From assembly GCF_026339875.1 (NCBI RefSeq), contig NZ_JAPEPZ010000001.1:4650001-4714000 (forward strand): a DNA stretch of 64,000 nucleotides, written 5' to 3'. This document shows, piece after piece, positions 35,637-43,238 of this stretch. The stretch is from Streptomyces sp. NBC_01571. GTDB taxonomy: Bacteria > Actinomycetota > Actinomycetes > Streptomycetales > Streptomycetaceae. The notes under the pieces are model-generated. The model was given only the letters and a program-made list of their open reading frames with translations. It was not told the DNA's origin and ran no database searches. Position 1 is the first letter of the stretch. Every line of letters starts with the position of its first letter. Position numbers and translations under genes: made by a program.

Positions 35637-38051
35637 TCACCCTCCTCCGGTCGTGGTGGCCGCCAGGTGCGGCCCGCTGCTGGACGTCGACAGGCCCGGG
35701 CCGCCGGTGCTCGGCGTGAGTACCGGTCCAGACGTGCTGCTGTCGAGTTGGTCGGCGGGCCGCTGCCGGTGGCCGCTGAGGGCGAGCGCCTGGGCGTGCT
35801 CGACGGCTGGCGTGAGCCGGATCTTCGGGCCGATGAGCGCCCGGTTGATCTCGTGCGCGGTGCCCAGCTGCACGCGCGAGACGGTGCCGAGCTGCTCGGC
35901 GGACTCGAGCGCACTCGCGGTGCCGAGAGTCAGCCGGCCTGCTCCCGCCAGGGCCTGCGCCGTGTTGGTCTCGGCCGCCGTGCCGAGGGCCAGCCGTTTC
36001 CGGCCGAACAGTGGCTGCGCTGTGGCCACCTCGCCCGCGGCTGCGACCGCACGCGTCTTGCCCCCGGTGAGCGGCCTCGCCGTCGTCGTCTCGGCGGCAG
36101 GGACGATGCGGCCGGGGATGGTGAGTGCCCGGGCCGCTGTCGTCTCGATTGCGGCCGTGAGCGGCAGCTGCTTCGCCGCGGTGAGCGGACGCGCGGCCGC
36201 GGTCTCGGTCGCCGTGCCGAGCGTGGTCCGCTTCGTGCCGGCGAGTGCCTGCGCGGTGTCTGTCCCGGCAGCCGGTCCCAGCGTCCGCGCCTTGTGCGCG
36301 GGCAGGGGCTGCGCGGCCGCGGTCTCCCCGGCGAGGCCGAGGACGCCCGCAACGAGGCCGGTGAGTGCCTGTGCTGCGCTGCTCTCCACGGCGCTCGGCA
36401 GGGTCTGCCGCTTGGCCGTGGTGAGGAGTCCGGCCCCAGAGGACTCCTCACCCGGCGTCAGGGCCTGCCGCTTACGCCCCGAAAGCGGCAGCCCGGTCGT
36501 GGTCTCAGCCGCGGGGGCGAGGTCACGACGTCGTGCCCGACCGAGTGGCCGGGCGGTCTCCGTGGACTGGGCAGTGCCCAGTGCCATGGTCTTGATCTGG
36601 CCGAGGGCCCGGGCGGTACTCGTCTCGCTGGCGCCGACGATGCCCGACGCCGAGGCCAGCGTGAGCGCCGTCTCCGTGCACTCCGCGGTCGTGAGCGCCT
36701 GCCTCTTCGCCCCGGTCAGTGGCCGCGCGGTGGTGGTCTCGGCTGCGGCCTGGAGGCCGGTGGCCGGTACGAGCGGGAGGCCCGTGCTCGTTTCGGTGGC
36801 CGGGCCGAGAACGAGCCGCTTGGCCGTGCCCAGCGGGCGCGCGGTCTCCGTGGCGGCCGCGGCCCCGAGCGCGCGGGCCTTCCGGCGCCCGGCCGGCTGC
36901 GCGGTCTCGGTCGCCTCGCCCGTGGTGAGCGGCTTGGTCTTACGGGCGCCGAGGGGTTGCGCGGTCTCGGTCGCCTGGCCGACGCCGAGTGTGCGGCGCC
37001 TGCTGTGCGCGAGAGCCTGCGCCGTGTCCGTCTCGACCGCAACCGGAAGAGCGCGGCTGCGGGCGCCCGCGAGAGGCTGCCCGGCCGAGGTCTCCACCGC
37101 GGTGCCGAGCGTGCGGCGCTTAGTCCGGCCGAGGGCCTGCGCCCCGTCGGTCTCCGCGGCCAGGCCGAGGGCGCGCTGCTTCGCGCGCCCTGGTGCTTGC
37201 GCGGCCGTGGTCTCCGCGGCGGGTGTGAGCGCGCGGATGACGAGGCGGGTGAGGGGCCGTCCGGCGTTGCTCTCCGTCGCGGTCCCGAGGGCCTTCGTCT
37301 TGGCCTTGGCGAGGGCCTGGGCCGTGTCCGTCTCGCCTGCGGTCCCGAGCGCCTGGGAGGTACCGGACGTAGCGACCGCGACCAGCAGGTGGTAGAGGTT
37401 CGCTTCGGTGGCGCGCGCCGCACCCTGGTTGATCGTCTGCGCGCCCGGGGCGACGGTCCCGCTCTGCGCCAGCCGGTAGGAGAGGCTGGCCCCGACCTGC
37501 CGGGTTGCGTTGGTCGTTCCAGTGGCCGTGGACGTGTCGCCGCCGGTCGGTTCGGTCCAGTTGGTGGGCGGGGTAGTGACGACGGCCGAGCTGCCGAGGA
37601 TGTCCGCGCGGGTCGAGTTGAGGACGACGCTGGTCACCGAACTGGACACTGCGGCAACTGAGTTAGGGGTGTGGGATTCAGCTGCGGCCGTGACGATCTT
37701 CGCTGTGGCGACCGCGTCGACTGCGATGGTCTCCCCCGCGCCCGGCGCGAGTGCGATCGCGGCCCACGCCCACTTCCCGGCGGCGGCCGCCGTGAACGTG
37801 GGGTTCCCGTCGCCGGACTGCATGACGCGCCGGTACACAGCACCGGTGTGCCCCGCCCCGCCCGAGTTCGAGTTGTCGTGGACCTCCGTCCACCCGGCCG
37901 ATCCCGTCCACGAGGTGGAGGCGCCGACCGTGAGGACGACGAGGACCAGATCCCCGGCCGCCCACGACGTGCCGGCCAGGGTGGGGGTGATGGCGGTGGC
38001 CGTGGCTGACCCGCCGTTGGCGGATGTGGCGCCGCGGAAGCTGACGGCCAT
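35637..38051 (-). CDS. Repeat-rich phage structural protein (about 26 repeats of 20 residues)
   Basis: An 804-residue protein in two parts. Residues 1-230 form a beta-rich domain (SWAAGDLVLVVLTVGASTSW; GKWAWAAIALAPGAGETIAV) like actinophage appendage proteins. Residues 234 to about 755 are tandem 20-residue repeats, consensus ALGTAxETxTAQPLxxxKxR, followed by a short Pro/Thr tail. The strict 20-residue period with alternating hydrophobic, acidic and basic positions suggests a repetitive solenoid or trimeric fibre. The gene lies among capsid accessory and connector genes, so a head fibre or neck appendage is my inference. Not a family I can name. Confidence 0.7.
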   Translation of the reverse strand: MAVSFRGATSANGGSATATAITPTLAGTSWAAGDLVLVVLTVGASTSWTGSAGWTEVHDNSNSGGAGHTGAVYRRVMQSGDGNPTFTAAAAGKWAWAAIALAPGAGETIAVDAVATAKIVTAAAESHTPNSVAAVSSSVTSVVLNSTRADILGSSAVVTTPPTNWTEPTGGDTSTATGTTNATRQVGASLSYRLAQSGTVAPGAQTINQGAARATEANLYHLLVAVATSGTSQALGTAGETDTAQALAKAKTKALGTATESNAGRPLTRLVIRALTPAAETTAAQAPGRAKQRALGLAAETDGAQALGRTKRRTLGTAVETSAGQPLAGARSRALPVAVETDTAQALAHSRRRTLGVGQATETAQPLGARKTKPLTTGEATETAQPAGRRKARALGAAAATETARPLGTAKRLVLGPATETSTGLPLVPATGLQAAAETTTARPLTGAKRQALTTAECTETALTLASASGIVGASETSTARALGQIKTMALGTAQSTETARPLGRARRRDLAPAAETTTGLPLSGRKRQALTPGEESSGAGLLTTAKRQTLPSAVESSAAQALTGLVAGVLGLAGETAAAQPLPAHKARTLGPAAGTDTAQALAGTKRTTLGTATETAAARPLTAAKQLPLTAAIETTAARALTIPGRIVPAAETTTARPLTGGKTRAVAAAGEVATAQPLFGRKRLALGTAAETNTAQALAGAGRLTLGTASALESAEQLGTVSRVQLGTAHEINRALIGPKIRLTPAVEHAQALALSGHRQRPADQLDSSTSGPVLTPSTGGPGLSTSSSGPHLAATTTGGG
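35792..37352 (-). repeat. About 26 tandem 60-bp coding repeats
   Basis: Degenerate 60-bp units in phase with the reading frame encode the ALGTAxETxTAQPL-type motif. Most units are exactly 20 codons; a few are 19. Divergence is high, so the array is old or selected for variation rather than recently expanded. Confidence 0.85.
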
Positions 38052-39671: not shown

Positions 39672-40072
39672 TTCTCGTCTCCCTGCTTCTGCTCGCCGCG
39701 GGCGAGGATCGACTTGCGGGCCTTGCCGTCGCGTTCGGCGGCGATGACGCGGTCGTACTCGGCGTCGCTGTCGCTGTCCTTGTTGGCCAGCGAGTCGAGG
39801 TAGGCGAGGACCTCGTCCTGGTTGTGCTTGGACGGGTCGTACTCCGTGGCCGGGGTGATGGCCGCCGGGGGCTGCGGGTTGTCCTCCGCTTCCGGGCCGC
39901 CCTCGGGGGTGAGGGCGTAGCCCTGGCGACGGAAGTACTCGATGGCCGCCCGGCCGTCCTTCGTGGAGTCGTCCACGTGGCCAGTGCCCTTGGAGAACTG
40001 CACGCCCACGGACTCGCCGCTGAACGTACGGACGGGGGCTTCGACGGTGTACCTGTTCGTCATGTCGGTCAC
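39668..40072 (-). CDS. Small acidic head protein downstream of the major capsid gene
   Basis: A 134-residue protein. The N-terminal beta segment (YTVEAPVRTFSGESVGVQFS) contains features of head-completion or FI-like proteins, while the C-terminal half is acidic and charged (EVLAYLDSLANKDSDSDAEY). The GTG at 40072 overlaps the capsid stop by four bases, so expression is coupled to capsid synthesis. Confidence 0.62.
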   Translation of the reverse strand: MTDMTNRYTVEAPVRTFSGESVGVQFSKGTGHVDDSTKDGRAAIEYFRRQGYALTPEGGPEAEDNPQPPAAITPATEYDPSKHNQDEVLAYLDSLANKDSDSDAEYDRVIAAERDGKARKSILARGEQKQGDEK

Positions 40073-41133
40073 CGCACCTTCACGTTGCGCAGGACGCCGC
40101 AGGCCTTGGTGTTGCGGAGGACCGCAGCGACCGGGCCCATCTCGACCTCGCCGGTCTTGACCGCGCCCGGCTGTGAGAAGTCCGGCAGGTAGGTCTCGAC
40201 GAGCGGGGTGCCCGCCATCGAGGCGCCGTGGAACGCGTCCAGGCCGAGGCTCACGGCGTAGATGTCGGTGAGGCCGGTGATGTTGCCGCCGCCGCCCGCT
40301 CCGTCTGCGTCGCGCGTCTGGATCGGGATGATCGGGGCCGAGCCGTCGGCACGGTCGCCGAGGTCGACGAGGACCCAGTCGCCGTACTTCTCGATCAGCA
40401 TGCCGAGGGCGTCGCGCTCCGAGGTGTACTGCGAGGCGCGGCGGGCCAGGGACTTGATGCGGGAGATCGACTTCGTGTTGCCGAGGATCCCCTTGACGCC
40501 GGCCGGGATGGAGCCGTCCGCGCCCTGGTCTCCGGAGCCGGTCTGCGAGCCCATGATCCGCGACAGGAAGTCGTCGAACGCGTCGAACGCGCTCATGGCG
40601 ATGTCCTCGGTGGTCACCGTCGCCGGGGACCAGTCGAGGTACCCCGCGGTGATGCCTTCGTTGACCGGCAGGTACTCCGTGGACTGCCCGGTCAGCGCCT
40701 TGTCCAGGCCGTCGAAGCCTGCGTCGTCGACGGCGGTGTCGCCGAGGATCAGTTCCTGCTGGAAGCGGGTCCGCATCGAGGTCAGCTTCTGTGCGAGCTG
40801 GAACGAGATTTCGTTCGAGGCGGCCGGGCCGAGGTTGGCCAGCTTCCGGTCGACAGTGAACGCACCACCGAGAGGGTGCAGGTCGACGGTCTTCCGCTCC
40901 CTGCTCGCCTGGTTGGGGACGTACTCCTCGTTGAACCGGCGGAAGCTGGCCGCCGAGGCGGCGAGCAGCCGGGTGTACCCGTAGGTGAGGGAGCCGCCGC
41001 CCGTGCCCGGGGTGACGGTGTCATCCCACACCATGTTCCGGAACAGCCACGAGTTGCGGCGGAGGTTGTCGATGACGGCGAAGTCGATGTCCGCCTGAGT
41101 GTTGAGCGCCGCCTGGGCGAGCGTCACGGGCAT
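40069..41133 (-). CDS. Major capsid protein, HK97-fold
   Basis: A 354-residue protein with the N-terminal helical arm (ALNTQADIDFAVIDNLRRNS), the E-loop-like region (RKTVDLHPLGGAFTVDRKLA), spine helix (EISFQLAQKLTSMRTRFQQE) and P/A-domain strands of HK97-fold capsids in actinophages. It lies directly after the scaffold gene. The ATG at 41133 follows AGGAG. It builds the icosahedral shell. Confidence 0.88.
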   Translation of the reverse strand: MPVTLAQAALNTQADIDFAVIDNLRRNSWLFRNMVWDDTVTPGTGGGSLTYGYTRLLAASAASFRRFNEEYVPNQASRERKTVDLHPLGGAFTVDRKLANLGPAASNEISFQLAQKLTSMRTRFQQELILGDTAVDDAGFDGLDKALTGQSTEYLPVNEGITAGYLDWSPATVTTEDIAMSAFDAFDDFLSRIMGSQTGSGDQGADGSIPAGVKGILGNTKSISRIKSLARRASQYTSERDALGMLIEKYGDWVLVDLGDRADGSAPIIPIQTRDADGAGGGGNITGLTDIYAVSLGLDAFHGASMAGTPLVETYLPDFSQPGAVKTGEVEMGPVAAVLRNTKACGVLRNVKVR

Positions 41134-41149: not shown

Positions 41150-41950
41150 TCAGGTCTGGTAGTGGTTCGAGATCGCCCCTGCGAGCGATCCGGAGCGCTT
41201 CTTCGCGGCTCCCTCACCCGTCCCGCCGGACAGGTCGCCGCCGGACTTCCCGGCGGGCTGAGCAGTGCCGAACGCGGTGGAGTTCTCCTTCAGCGCGTCC
41301 TTGATCGCGGTGTCGAGCGCGGTGGTGAAGCCCTTTTCGGAGGGGTCGAGTTCGGCGATCTCGCGGAGGAAGGACCGGGAGTCGAGGAGCGCGCCGGCCT
41401 TCGCCTGGAGCTTCTCGGCCCGCGACCAGACGGCGAGCTCGACGTCCTTCGCGCGGAGCGCCGCGTCCCTCTCGCTGATCGTGGTGTCCTTCTGCGCGAT
41501 GGCGTCCGCAAGTGCCTTCGGGTCCGGCGGCGCGTCGTCCTTCACGAATCCGAGCGCCTTGCCGAGCTGCTTGGTGATGGCCGAGACCGCGTCGTCCGCG
41601 GCCTGCTTCTTCGCGTCCGTACGGGCCTTCCCGGCGTCCTTGCGGGCGTCGGCGAGTTCCTTCTCCAGCCGCTTGACCGTGGCCGCGAGGTCATCGCCCC
41701 CGTCCTTGCCCTGGCCGGTGTCCTTGCCGGAGCCACCTCCGGTGCCCGCGCCGCCCTGGCCGCCGTCACCGCCGCCCGAGCTCCCGCCGTCGCCGGTTCC
41801 ACCGCCTCCGTCACCGCCCCCGTCGCCGCTGCCGGATCCGGAGCCGTCGCCGTCCCCTCCGTCCGCGTACAGGAACGGGGAGAAAGGGCCGTGGCCGTAC
41901 GGGTGCGCCCAGCCGCCCCCCGCGAGTCGGGGCAGAGTCTTCTTCCGCAT
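41150..41950 (-). CDS. Capsid scaffolding protein
   Basis: A 266-residue protein. After a short basic N-terminus comes a Gly/Asp/Ser-rich low-complexity stretch at about residues 30-75. A long coiled coil (LAATVKRLEKELADARKDAG) and a C-terminal helix that would contact capsid (AKKRSGSLAGAISNHYQT) follow. This layout and position before the capsid gene are typical of scaffolds. The ATG at 41950 follows GGAGGG. The upstream open frame covers a hairpin array and is not considered coding. Confidence 0.85.
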   Translation of the reverse strand: MRKKTLPRLAGGGWAHPYGHGPFSPFLYADGGDGDGSGSGSGDGGGDGGGGTGDGGSSGGGDGGQGGAGTGGGSGKDTGQGKDGGDDLAATVKRLEKELADARKDAGKARTDAKKQAADDAVSAITKQLGKALGFVKDDAPPDPKALADAIAQKDTTISERDAALRAKDVELAVWSRAEKLQAKAGALLDSRSFLREIAELDPSEKGFTTALDTAIKDALKENSTAFGTAQPAGKSGGDLSGGTGEGAAKKRSGSLAGAISNHYQT

Positions 41951-41972
41951 GCGCCCTCCAAGGGCAGGTGTC

Positions 41973-42111
41973 GCCCGCGCCTGGCGGGCATTGGGGGTTC
42001 GGGCCGCAACCTGGCGTGCCCGTGGTGGTGCTGTGTGGCCCGCGCCTGGCGGACCTTCAGGAGTGACCCGCACCAGGCGGATCGGTGTCCCCGGCCGCGC
42101 CCGGCGGCCGG
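41973..42111 (-). repeat. Array of five RNA stem-loops with a shared pentaloop, upstream of the scaffold gene
   Basis: Hairpins lie at 42091-42111, 42067-42081, 42037-42055, 42001-42021 and 41973-41989. On the transcribed (minus) sense all have the core CCGC-CNGGY-GCGG or close: loops CGGGC, CTGGT, CAGGC, CAGGTT and CAGGC. Stems are 6-8 bp; one has a single bulged base. Centres are 27-35 nt apart. Several outer pairs are G-U only in the minus-strand RNA, which argues for RNA function. No U-tract follows, so they are not ordinary terminators. Confidence 0.75.
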
Positions 42112-42116
42112 AAGTC

Positions 42117-43238
42117 TCAGCGGGCGCCCGCGAGCTGCTCGCGGTGGCCCTTGCGCGGGAGCCCGGTCTCGGCGACCAAGGCGCGGATCCGGCCCTGGTA
42201 GGCGCGGACCTTCGCGTTCGCGGCCGCCTTCTTCTGGTCGTCCATCGCCCCGGCGGCCTCGCGCTTCCACTTGCGGACCTGCCGCTCTAGGTAGCGCTGC
42301 TGCTGTGACTGCTCGTACGTCGCACGCGTCCGCTCTGCCTTCGGAGGCAGCGGCTTGGTGACGCCTGGCAGGTAGATCGAGATGGAGTGCCGGCAGTTCG
42401 GATGCATCAGCCCAGCCGCGCGGGCCTCCGGGAGGGACCCGGCGACGTGGACGCGGACCATGCGGTCGTCCTCCGTCGCGTGCTCCATCTCCTCGACGCC
42501 GGCCCCGGCCGCGCCCTCCCGGCGGAGGATCTTCCCCTCCCACGGCTTGCACCGCGGGCACTCCTCCGGGGCGTCAGAGACCACGACGAGGTCGATCCCC
42601 GCAGCACCGAGCCGGTCGGTGTGCGCCTGCACCGCCGCCCGTCCGAGCGCGGACCGACTGGCCATCTCCGCGTACGAGGTGAGGTTCCAGGCGCGGCCGG
42701 ATCGGTCCACGAATCCCGTGACCCCGCGGCCGGCGAATTTCGCGAGGGCCTGCTCGGCCGCTTGCCGCCGTGTCGTAGCTCCGAGCAGCGGCGCCGCTGA
42801 TGCCTCGGCGATCACCTGGCGGTATACGTCCAGCCCGGTCCGCAGGATTCGCGCGTGCGTCGCCCCTGTCTCCGAGACGAGCGCGGCGGCGAGCCGGTCC
42901 ACGGCCGGAGCTGTCGGCAGCGCCTCGGCCGCCGCGAGTGCGGGACCGGTCGCGACCGCGCCGAGTTCGAGCACTGCCGCCTGCTGCCCGCGGTCGTACG
43001 CCTCGGCGACGGCCTTGTGGATCGCTCCGGACGCGTTGGTCTGGAGTACGGAGATGATCTCGTCGATCGCACTGCGCAGGTTCCCGAGCGCGGCGAGCTT
43101 CAGCTCCACCCACAGCGGCGAGTCGATGCCCTCGGCCAGCGCGCGCGTGACTTTCTCGATCAGGGCAAGTTCGGCCTGCTCGTACAGCGTGGACACCGCA
43201 GCCGCGAGGTCCTCGGCCATGTCGGGGCTGACGGCCAT
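42117..43238 (-). CDS. Phage minor capsid protein (minor capsid 2 / MuF-like)
   Basis: A 373-residue protein. The helical N-terminal two thirds is followed by ECPRCKPWEGKIL and, about 60 residues later, MHPNCRHSISIYLPG; the Cys/His pattern is diagnostic of the phage minor capsid 2 group. The C-terminus is a charged helix. It lies between portal and scaffold, where such proteins are packaged or help head assembly. The ATG at 43238 follows GGGGGTGA. Confidence 0.85.
   Translation of the reverse strand: MAVSPDMAEDLAAAVSTLYEQAELALIEKVTRALAEGIDSPLWVELKLAALGNLRSAIDEIISVLQTNASGAIHKAVAEAYDRGQQAAVLELGAVATGPALAAAEALPTAPAVDRLAAALVSETGATHARILRTGLDVYRQVIAEASAAPLLGATTRRQAAEQALAKFAGRGVTGFVDRSGRAWNLTSYAEMASRSALGRAAVQAHTDRLGAAGIDLVVVSDAPEECPRCKPWEGKILRREGAAGAGVEEMEHATEDDRMVRVHVAGSLPEARAAGLMHPNCRHSISIYLPGVTKPLPPKAERTRATYEQSQQQRYLERQVRKWKREAAGAMDDQKKAAANAKVRAYQGRIRALVAETGLPRKGHREQLAGAR

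Follow-up and report, generated by a model that had tools for sequence, protein, structure and literature searches.

What role do repeated RNA hairpins play ahead of the genes for a phage scaffold and capsid? Tailed phages must produce the right amount of scaffold per capsid. In an actinobacterial prophage of Streptomyces sp. NBC_01571, the 166-nt leader that runs from a MuF-like minor capsid gene to the scaffold gene had been predicted from its sequence to carry five tandem stem-loops. We analysed this leader within a 64-kb stretch of DNA (64,000 nt in all, here called the window) and compared it with the leaders of related phages and prophages.

The scaffold locus

The leader and its neighbours all lie on the minus strand, and the following features define the locus:

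42117..43238, minus strand: MuF-like minor capsid gene, directly upstream of the leader (PF06152, E 1e-64; phrog_12049, head morphogenesis)
41955..41959, minus strand: Shine-Dalgarno (SD) core GGAGG of the scaffold gene, read from the sequence
41150..41950, minus strand: scaffold gene, 266 amino acids, ATG at 41950 (phrog_8952, unknown function, E 4e-77)
40069..41133, minus strand: major capsid protein gene (phrog_212, major head protein, E 2.5e-66)

A Pfam search with the window's scaffold protein gave no match, and its identity rests on relatives in phages Ignacio, SoJo and Darolandstone that are annotated as scaffolding proteins; the scaffold of phage Raleigh matches phrog_233 (head scaffolding, E 1.5e-4). 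The window's protein consists of an N-terminal tag, a low-complexity stretch, a central module ("ARKDAGKARTDAKKQAADDAV...GKALG") and a C-terminal part. A mechanical reading frame from a GTG at 42073 (41150-42073, minus strand) would cross the leader, and the ATG at 41950, which has its own SD, is the likelier start. Further downstream in the structural block, an 804-aa protein (35637-38051, minus strand) contains many LGxAxETxxAxPL-like motif repeats.

Five strong hairpins and a weaker sixth one in the leader

The predicted series of five hairpins with CNGGY loops between the minor capsid and scaffold genes is real, and both loops and coordinates were reproduced on the minus strand. The row is incomplete in one respect: a sixth, weaker hairpin that holds the SD had been overlooked next to the five strong ones. 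From the minor capsid gene towards the scaffold start, the hairpins are:

42089..42113, minus strand: hairpin 1 (H1), loop CGGGC, core 42091-42111 of 8 bp, up to 10 pairs with wobbles
42065..42083, minus strand: hairpin 2 (H2), loop CTGGT, 7 bp including one U-G pair
42037..42055, minus strand: hairpin 3 (H3), loop CAGGC, 7 bp including one U-G pair
42000..42022, minus strand: hairpin 4 (H4), loop CAGGTT (6 nt), with a bulged A in the 5' arm
41972..41990, minus strand: hairpin 5 (H5), loop CAGGC, 7 bp, loop 22 nt from the SD loop
41952..41966, minus strand: hairpin 6, UGCCC-UUGGA-GGGCG, 5 bp, SD in loop and 3' arm, absent from the window's minimum-energy fold

The loops of H1 to H5 are all closed by GC...GC and follow one another at steps of 27, 27, 36 and 30 nt. 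H1 occupies a position common to many relatives, and A-containing forms similar to the bulged H4 are also present in relatives. Such a series is not expected from composition: the gap holds four CNGGY loops of five nt, each on a stem of 6 bp or more, against a maximum of two in 20,000 dinucleotide shuffles, 19,776 of which have no CNGGY hairpin at all.

Global folding energy was dropped as evidence, being no better than that of shuffles (z -0.43 for the 166-nt gap, not unusual for such GC-richness, and z -0.22 for the whole region of 196 nt). When pairs were limited to 40 nt, the gap reached z -2.5, with 2 of 200 shuffles as low. Because only this local-pair energy is unusual, it is the loop motif and its repetition, not stability, that carry the case. 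In the minimum-energy fold of the gap alone (-84.0 kcal/mol), H1 to H4 form and one longer stem replaces H5 and the SD hairpin, likewise covering the SD; all six hairpins form only with pairs limited to 30 nt (-79.2 kcal/mol), and adding the end of the upstream gene to the fold rearranges the first hairpins too. The longer stem (41952-41990, minus strand) is thus a possible alternative state in the predicted fold of the window. A two-state RNA switch may operate in the window's clade, to which it would be limited because the corresponding regions in relatives of other clades are, by eye, not complementary.

Conserved loops and covarying stems among relatives

To build the comparison set, the capsid protein was searched in 392 genomes of the window's genus, 36 of which matched, and in viral contigs, from which the best 80 were taken; further loci came from a tandem-hairpin scan of viral contigs (IMG/VR), a scaffold search and ten phage records. 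The resulting 240 loci were reduced to 176 with a capsid start, 164 with a scaffold frame, 140 that are non-redundant and finally 128, the last 12 being dropped for a mis-called scaffold start or frame (L029, L030, L031, L040, L084, L092, L099, L151, L161, L181, L327 and L329). The choice of 41 of the 128 is biased, 37 having come in through the hairpin pattern and 4 through the type B scaffold search; the other 87 were not chosen for hairpins (the window itself, 79 loci that the capsid search brought in and 7 annotated phages, some of which were first met through a DNA search whose query included the leader). A scan of genome contigs, in which at least 119 stretches matched, was judged by titles and supports no claim.

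Leaders were typed by their loops as A (CNGGN; 76 of 128), B (GNAY or GAAAC; 16 of 128) or neither (36), and the 87 loci split into 39, 12 and 36. A CNGGN hairpin lying upstream, at a distance of over 25 nt from the start, is present in 76 of the 128 leaders (a count that includes L069, of type B, and excludes L072, of type A) and in 39 of the 87, compared with about 4 of 128 expected from shuffled leaders. The CNGGY consensus holds in the window itself; in relatives the fifth base can also be A, which widens it to CNGGN.

When motif occurrences were collected by their nine-nt core, pairs 3-7 formed in 72-91% of 89 distinct cases in leaders, against 38-45% of 844 controls from other parts of these loci, in raw counts that, like all our conservation and covariation figures, ignore relatedness. 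Over all 89 segments, pairs 3-7 are paired at 0.838, against 0.677 in shuffles (maximum 0.712). In an alignment of 59 of the 89 segments, hand-chosen and mostly hairpin-looking, the covariation score was 0.200 compared with 0.074 when shuffled, and none of 500 shuffles reached it; the number of paired cells also lay above all 500 shuffles, and two weaker measures, pairs and pair types, were reached by 35 and 15 of 500. Covariation among relatives had been named with the original prediction as a check, and it came out positive: the loop is conserved and the stems change yet stay complementary, with a score above every shuffle. We are all but certain that the element is real and selected.

The exact tandem pattern turned up in 85 viral contigs of IMG/VR. 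In 74 of them a homolog of the scaffold or capsid protein is encoded on the same strand no more than 2.6 kb further downstream; among the other 11 contigs, four end less than 150 nt from the hairpins (L167, L169, L170 and L200) and seven do not end there (L125, L140, L143, L156, L159, L162 and L173). Other hairpins of a loose kind are scattered over ten whole phage genomes. The commonest step between upstream hairpins is 28-29 nt in the window's group and 36-38 nt in type A leaders of the Raleigh group. A translated leader is not favoured, because the loop spacings (27, 28, 29, 30, 36, 37, 38 nt and others) hold no triplet phase.

Some loci, for example L011, L041, L049 and L054, have a few hundred extra bases between the MuF gene and the hairpins. 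The extra DNA is on the MuF side, and the array therefore stays with the scaffold gene. Rfam had no match up to E 1 in the window between 36000 and 48000, nor any at the gathering score in L039, L324, L331, L370 and L371; a blastn search with the leader returned four Mycobacterium phage records with matches of 21-26 nt (E 0.5).

A further hairpin can enclose the ribosome site

By a test set, like the module patterns and the loop classes, after the same sequences had been viewed, an SD hairpin of at least 4 bp with a GGA loop is possible in 71 of the 76 type A leaders, compared with only 10 of 175 control genes that bear an SD (10 of 285 in total), all forward-strand genes of six phages. The loops of these 71 are CNGGA in 52 cases and TGGA, TTGGA (as in the window) or AGGA in 19. 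In many relatives the loop of the SD hairpin matches the upstream ones in kind, and the stems differ and still pair, as in gcac-CAGGA-gtgc (Raleigh) and gccc-CAGGA-gggc (Ignacio). A looser version of the test, with the SD in the loop or 3' arm, accepted 72 of 76 type A and 15 of 16 type B leaders, compared with 12 of 36 other leaders and 44 of 210 control genes, again on the forward strand. Among the 70 type A leaders measured, 51 have 20-24 nt between the SD loop and the last loop upstream of it.

Minimum-energy folds of the last 180 nt of type A leaders contain 97 of 149 upstream hairpins, and the last upstream one in 40 of 75 cases. The SD hairpin appears in 19 of the 71 leaders able to make it, and two or three GGA bases are paired in 50 of 76. 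Because these folds seldom contain it, the SD hairpin is predicted to be weak alone and would need a partner to hold. A site of the CsrA/RsmA type has a GGA within a hairpin loop; the five loops of the window read GGC or GGT, and GGA is found in the SD loop and in the CAGGA upstream loops of many relatives.

Since the SD can lie in a further hairpin of this kind, translational control is the leading option, and we consider it probable that the element controls translation of the scaffold gene.

Other loop classes share the layout

Type B leaders have a layout similar to that of type A. Their start-nearest hairpin overlaps the SD in 15 of 16, and a step of 19-21 nt separates their last two loops in 15 of 16 (36 nt in L069); type B leaders with two GCAC hairpins, from the set fetched by scaffold, have a spacing of 24 nt, and a third hairpin stands 36-38 nt further up in REQ3, L116 and L366. 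Two Gordonia phages outside the 128, GMA1 (three hairpins) and TinyDot (two), have GCAT/GCAC loops and, by eye, module B, the TinyDot leader having been known before its module was read and that of GMA1 not.

A search with a type B scaffold fetched 34 loci, of which 4 are also among the 128 and at least 4 more are on the same contigs as L040, L048, L052 or L059. At least two strict type B hairpins are present in 25 of them, and CNGGN in none of the 34; 23 of these 25 have module B by pattern, and in the remaining 2 the module was missed by the pattern or cut short. Of the 9 others, seven show, by eye, a single GCAC hairpin together with a variant of the GAAAA or GCAAC form, L363 carries GCAC along with others, and L364 lacks them.

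Still other leaders have GNRA loops (for example ctctcGCAAggagag over the SD), GAGAA/GAGAG loops or GAGAT loops (L066, L074, L076 and L079; L086; L115). Their sequences suggest further loop classes. In pMLP1, leader and module are both different.

Loop class follows the central module of the scaffold

Leader type and scaffold central module agreed in every locus where both could be assigned (75 of 75: 59 A-A, 16 B-B, none crossed), including 47 of 47 in the set of 87. Independent pairs on the capsid-protein tree, which covers 89 of the 92 type A or B loci and in which one long branch joins two unrelated capsid families, agreed in 8 of 8 cases (sign test p 0.008).

The capsid protein does not divide the leaders in this way. 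Capsid proteins of eight type B loci are 82-89% identical to the window's, and those of type A loci are likewise. Conversely, Ignacio (L326:6287-7141) and Austintatious (L328:6011-6865) have a phrog_544 capsid in place of phrog_212, the scaffold belonging to the same family and the leaders to type A; the Austintatious protein compared with the phrog_212 type gave a BLASTP E of 0.9. With two unrelated capsid families, one scaffold family and type A leaders, the capsid protein was rejected as the main ligand candidate.

The N-terminal tag of the scaffold comes in at least two exchangeable kinds, ..WxHPY.. and ..HPLA..GYRRDG... Type A leaders go with 32 WxHPY and 19 HPLA tags, type B leaders with 3 and 9 (Fisher p 0.025; among independent pairs, 4 agree, 2 show no difference and none is opposed, p 0.125). 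The tag lies between leader and module, and it tracks leader type less well than the module does. In the type B locus L012, 28 of 32 tag residues are, by eye, those of the window. The same tag is only 21-30% identical to the tags of L045, L047 and L052, to which L012 is 79-81% identical in the leader and 60-81% in the module. More broadly, tags of the forms WxHPY...YADGG and HPLATH...GYRRDG...IAGG (41855-41950, minus strand, in the window) are swapped between otherwise similar phages.

We infer that the central module is helical. In type A it has near-invariant basic residues, R103, K108, R110 and K114, in sequences that were picked by a pattern covering part of that basic stretch; net charge does not separate the groups. 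The association has its ragged edges. The strict pattern missed the module in 17 type A leaders, mostly in a worn form (RAEAAxxRTRAQ), and L026, with a type A leader, has no trace of it. Nine loci have neither module nor upstream CNGGN (L018, L020, L021, L023, L024, L025, L085, L103 and Picard), and five of them still have an SD hairpin. Module pattern A occurs with three leaders of neither type, one with a CNGGN motif and a stem mismatch (L065) and two that look unrelated (L032, L104); SV1, which has CNGGN motifs with mismatches, was also counted as neither. The scaffolds of Hiyaa, Galactica and Keanu are 48-52% identical to that of Raleigh over the module stretch, and that of Spocter 34% over a longer stretch including the module. 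The loops predicted beforehand for these four phages from their A-like module were not found: each has two hairpins with other loops (AGGTC/AAGTC, TTGAC/TGGAC).

Leader and scaffold gene are adjacent, and linked exchange could give the same correlation. Even so, because loop class is coupled to the scaffold module, the scaffold is the first candidate for the ligand.

A candidate translational operator read by the scaffold protein

Altogether, these comparisons favour reading the leader, which heads the scaffold-capsid gene pair, as a multi-site translational operator of the scaffold gene with the scaffold protein as its putative ligand, to which we assign a probability of roughly one half (0.52). 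One of three options offered with the prediction was that the hairpins are copies of an RNA element bound by a protein, perhaps one through which a virion protein exerts feedback. Such an element fits the conserved loop, the complementary stems, the fixed place and the SD hairpin, with the binding itself putative; feedback of this kind fits as well, and the data favour the scaffold over the capsid protein as that virion protein. A possible structure overlapping the ribosome-binding site, compensatory changes and co-divergence of putative operator and repressor, as expected of members of the operator class, were all found at the sequence level.

The starting points of the model are conserved pairing, a possible SD hairpin, constant placement and the association with the module, all observed in the compared sequences. 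From these we infer binding, repression and release on assembly as further steps. Free scaffold protein would bind the hairpin loops through its central module, and the strong upstream hairpins would collect it and raise its local concentration. Ribosomes could open the weak SD hairpin, and a protein gripping its loop would close the ribosome site. Once scaffold is taken into procapsids the site would reopen, and scaffold supply would follow capsid assembly. Feedback by free scaffold would be the natural use of such a device, since scaffold is needed only until procapsids form.

A broader proposal, which we advance tentatively and at somewhat less than even odds, is that the scaffolds of many actinophages, a large group, are sequence-specific RNA-binding repressors of translation whose short, helical central module reads the loops of tandem hairpins, that of the SD hairpin among them, module and loop class having been swapped together on several occasions. 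The exchangeable classes would be CNGGN and GNAY, and perhaps GNRA, GAGAN and others.

Alternative explanations

The same operator might instead serve another ligand, either a phage protein, such as an RMF-like protein encoded upstream, or a host RNA-binding protein. We regard this as unlikely. In Raleigh, SV1, Ignacio and SoJo the gene immediately preceding the leader codes for a protein of the ribosome modulation factor (RMF) family (PF04957, E 7e-11 to 4e-16), and of 48 type A loci that do not belong to the window's clade, 41 have a homolog. Within that clade, however, it was found in 1 of 28 type A loci, as far as the sequence extends, and not within the 64-kb window, and outside the clade it also occurs with 10 of 30 leaders of neither type. 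A host ligand would leave unexplained why loop class switches with the module among phages whose capsid proteins are so similar (82-89% identical), and the host genome shows no enrichment of the 15-nt motif (14 hits, compared with 12 when the pattern was reversed as a control).

Many Streptomyces phages have an RMF-family gene between the MuF gene and the leader, for example at L324:5158-5319, L323:4991-5155, L326:5322-5492 and L329:5239-5418.

Hairpins at this place could also attenuate or terminate transcription between the packaging and the scaffold/capsid genes, perhaps with relief by a factor, which is quite unlikely as an account of the window's array. In other clades (for example Raleigh and Austintatious) a TTT comes after the first hairpin in 38 of the 44 leaders where one was found, which suggests a termination role for that hairpin there. 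In the window's clade this holds for 1 of 23 first hairpins, it holds for none of 38 later hairpins in any clade, and the statement that no U-tract follows in the window was correct for each of the five. A terminator, moreover, requires neither a conserved loop, nor a preferred SD spacing, nor an SD within a hairpin.

That the array stabilises or processes mRNA, protecting a highly expressed scaffold-capsid transcript at its 5' end, seems to us very unlikely. Strong hairpins in several copies, bordering a presumably highly expressed gene block on its 5' side, would suit such a role, which leaves unexplained the conservation of the loop, the switching of its class with the module and the weak hairpin over the SD.

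The U-G third pairs noted in the prediction are present in H2 and H3; the strand argument drawn from them was dropped, since 17 GU against 11 AC in relatives retrieved by capsid protein (25:18 in all) is too weak as proof. A repeat acting at the DNA level, such as sites for a DNA-binding protein with no RNA role, would sit well with so slight a skew towards the transcribed strand, and is highly improbable given a loop that is kept while the stems change complementarily and a last copy that holds the SD in the sense strand.

Relation to known systems

A translational operator bound by scaffold protein would have relatives in kind. The coat protein of MS2-type phages represses its own mRNA through an RNA structure at the initiation region. 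Gp32 of T4 and RB69 likewise represses its own mRNA via structured RNA at the initiation region, and related phages can have diverged operators (PMC535899). Unlike in these systems, several hairpin copies precede the SD hairpin here, the gene is that of a tailed-phage scaffold, and loop class appears to switch with one module of the protein, whose binding is putative.

In P22, a phage of Salmonella, unassembled scaffolding protein (gp8) lowers its own synthesis post-transcriptionally and procapsid-bound protein does not; we know of no RNA operator or target defined for this autoregulation. The scaffold feedback proposed here would resemble that of gp8 in its regulation. The boxB/nut hairpins of lambda are short, with GNRA-like loops read by a basic peptide, and act in the antitermination of early operons. 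Type B and GNRA-loop leaders resemble them, whereas the present element overlaps the ribosome site before scaffold/capsid genes and has CNGGN loops in the window. Intrinsic terminators, too, are GC-rich intergenic hairpins, and the first hairpin of other clades mostly has a T-run; unlike them, the window's array has no T-run and has a conserved loop at a preferred distance from the SD.

Autogenous translational operators (gp32) and scaffold feedback (P22) are thus known in kind; what seems to be new is an operator of tandem hairpins, located in scaffold leaders, whose loop classes can be exchanged. The element is not described in the parts surveyed of the open-licence literature, which included sections of PMC7881722, PMC3741392, PMC6316719 and PMC535899. 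Phages growing on laboratory Streptomyces offer here a compact and widespread candidate operator with natural specificity swaps, which makes it directly testable. If the reading is true, an exchangeable RNA code would tie scaffold synthesis to the assembly of procapsids, and the leaders and modules would form a new family of small RNA-loop/peptide pairs, with natural variants that differ in loop preference and could be useful as tools. An upstream gap likewise precedes the scaffold gene of SPP1, as a table in PMC6316719 indicates.
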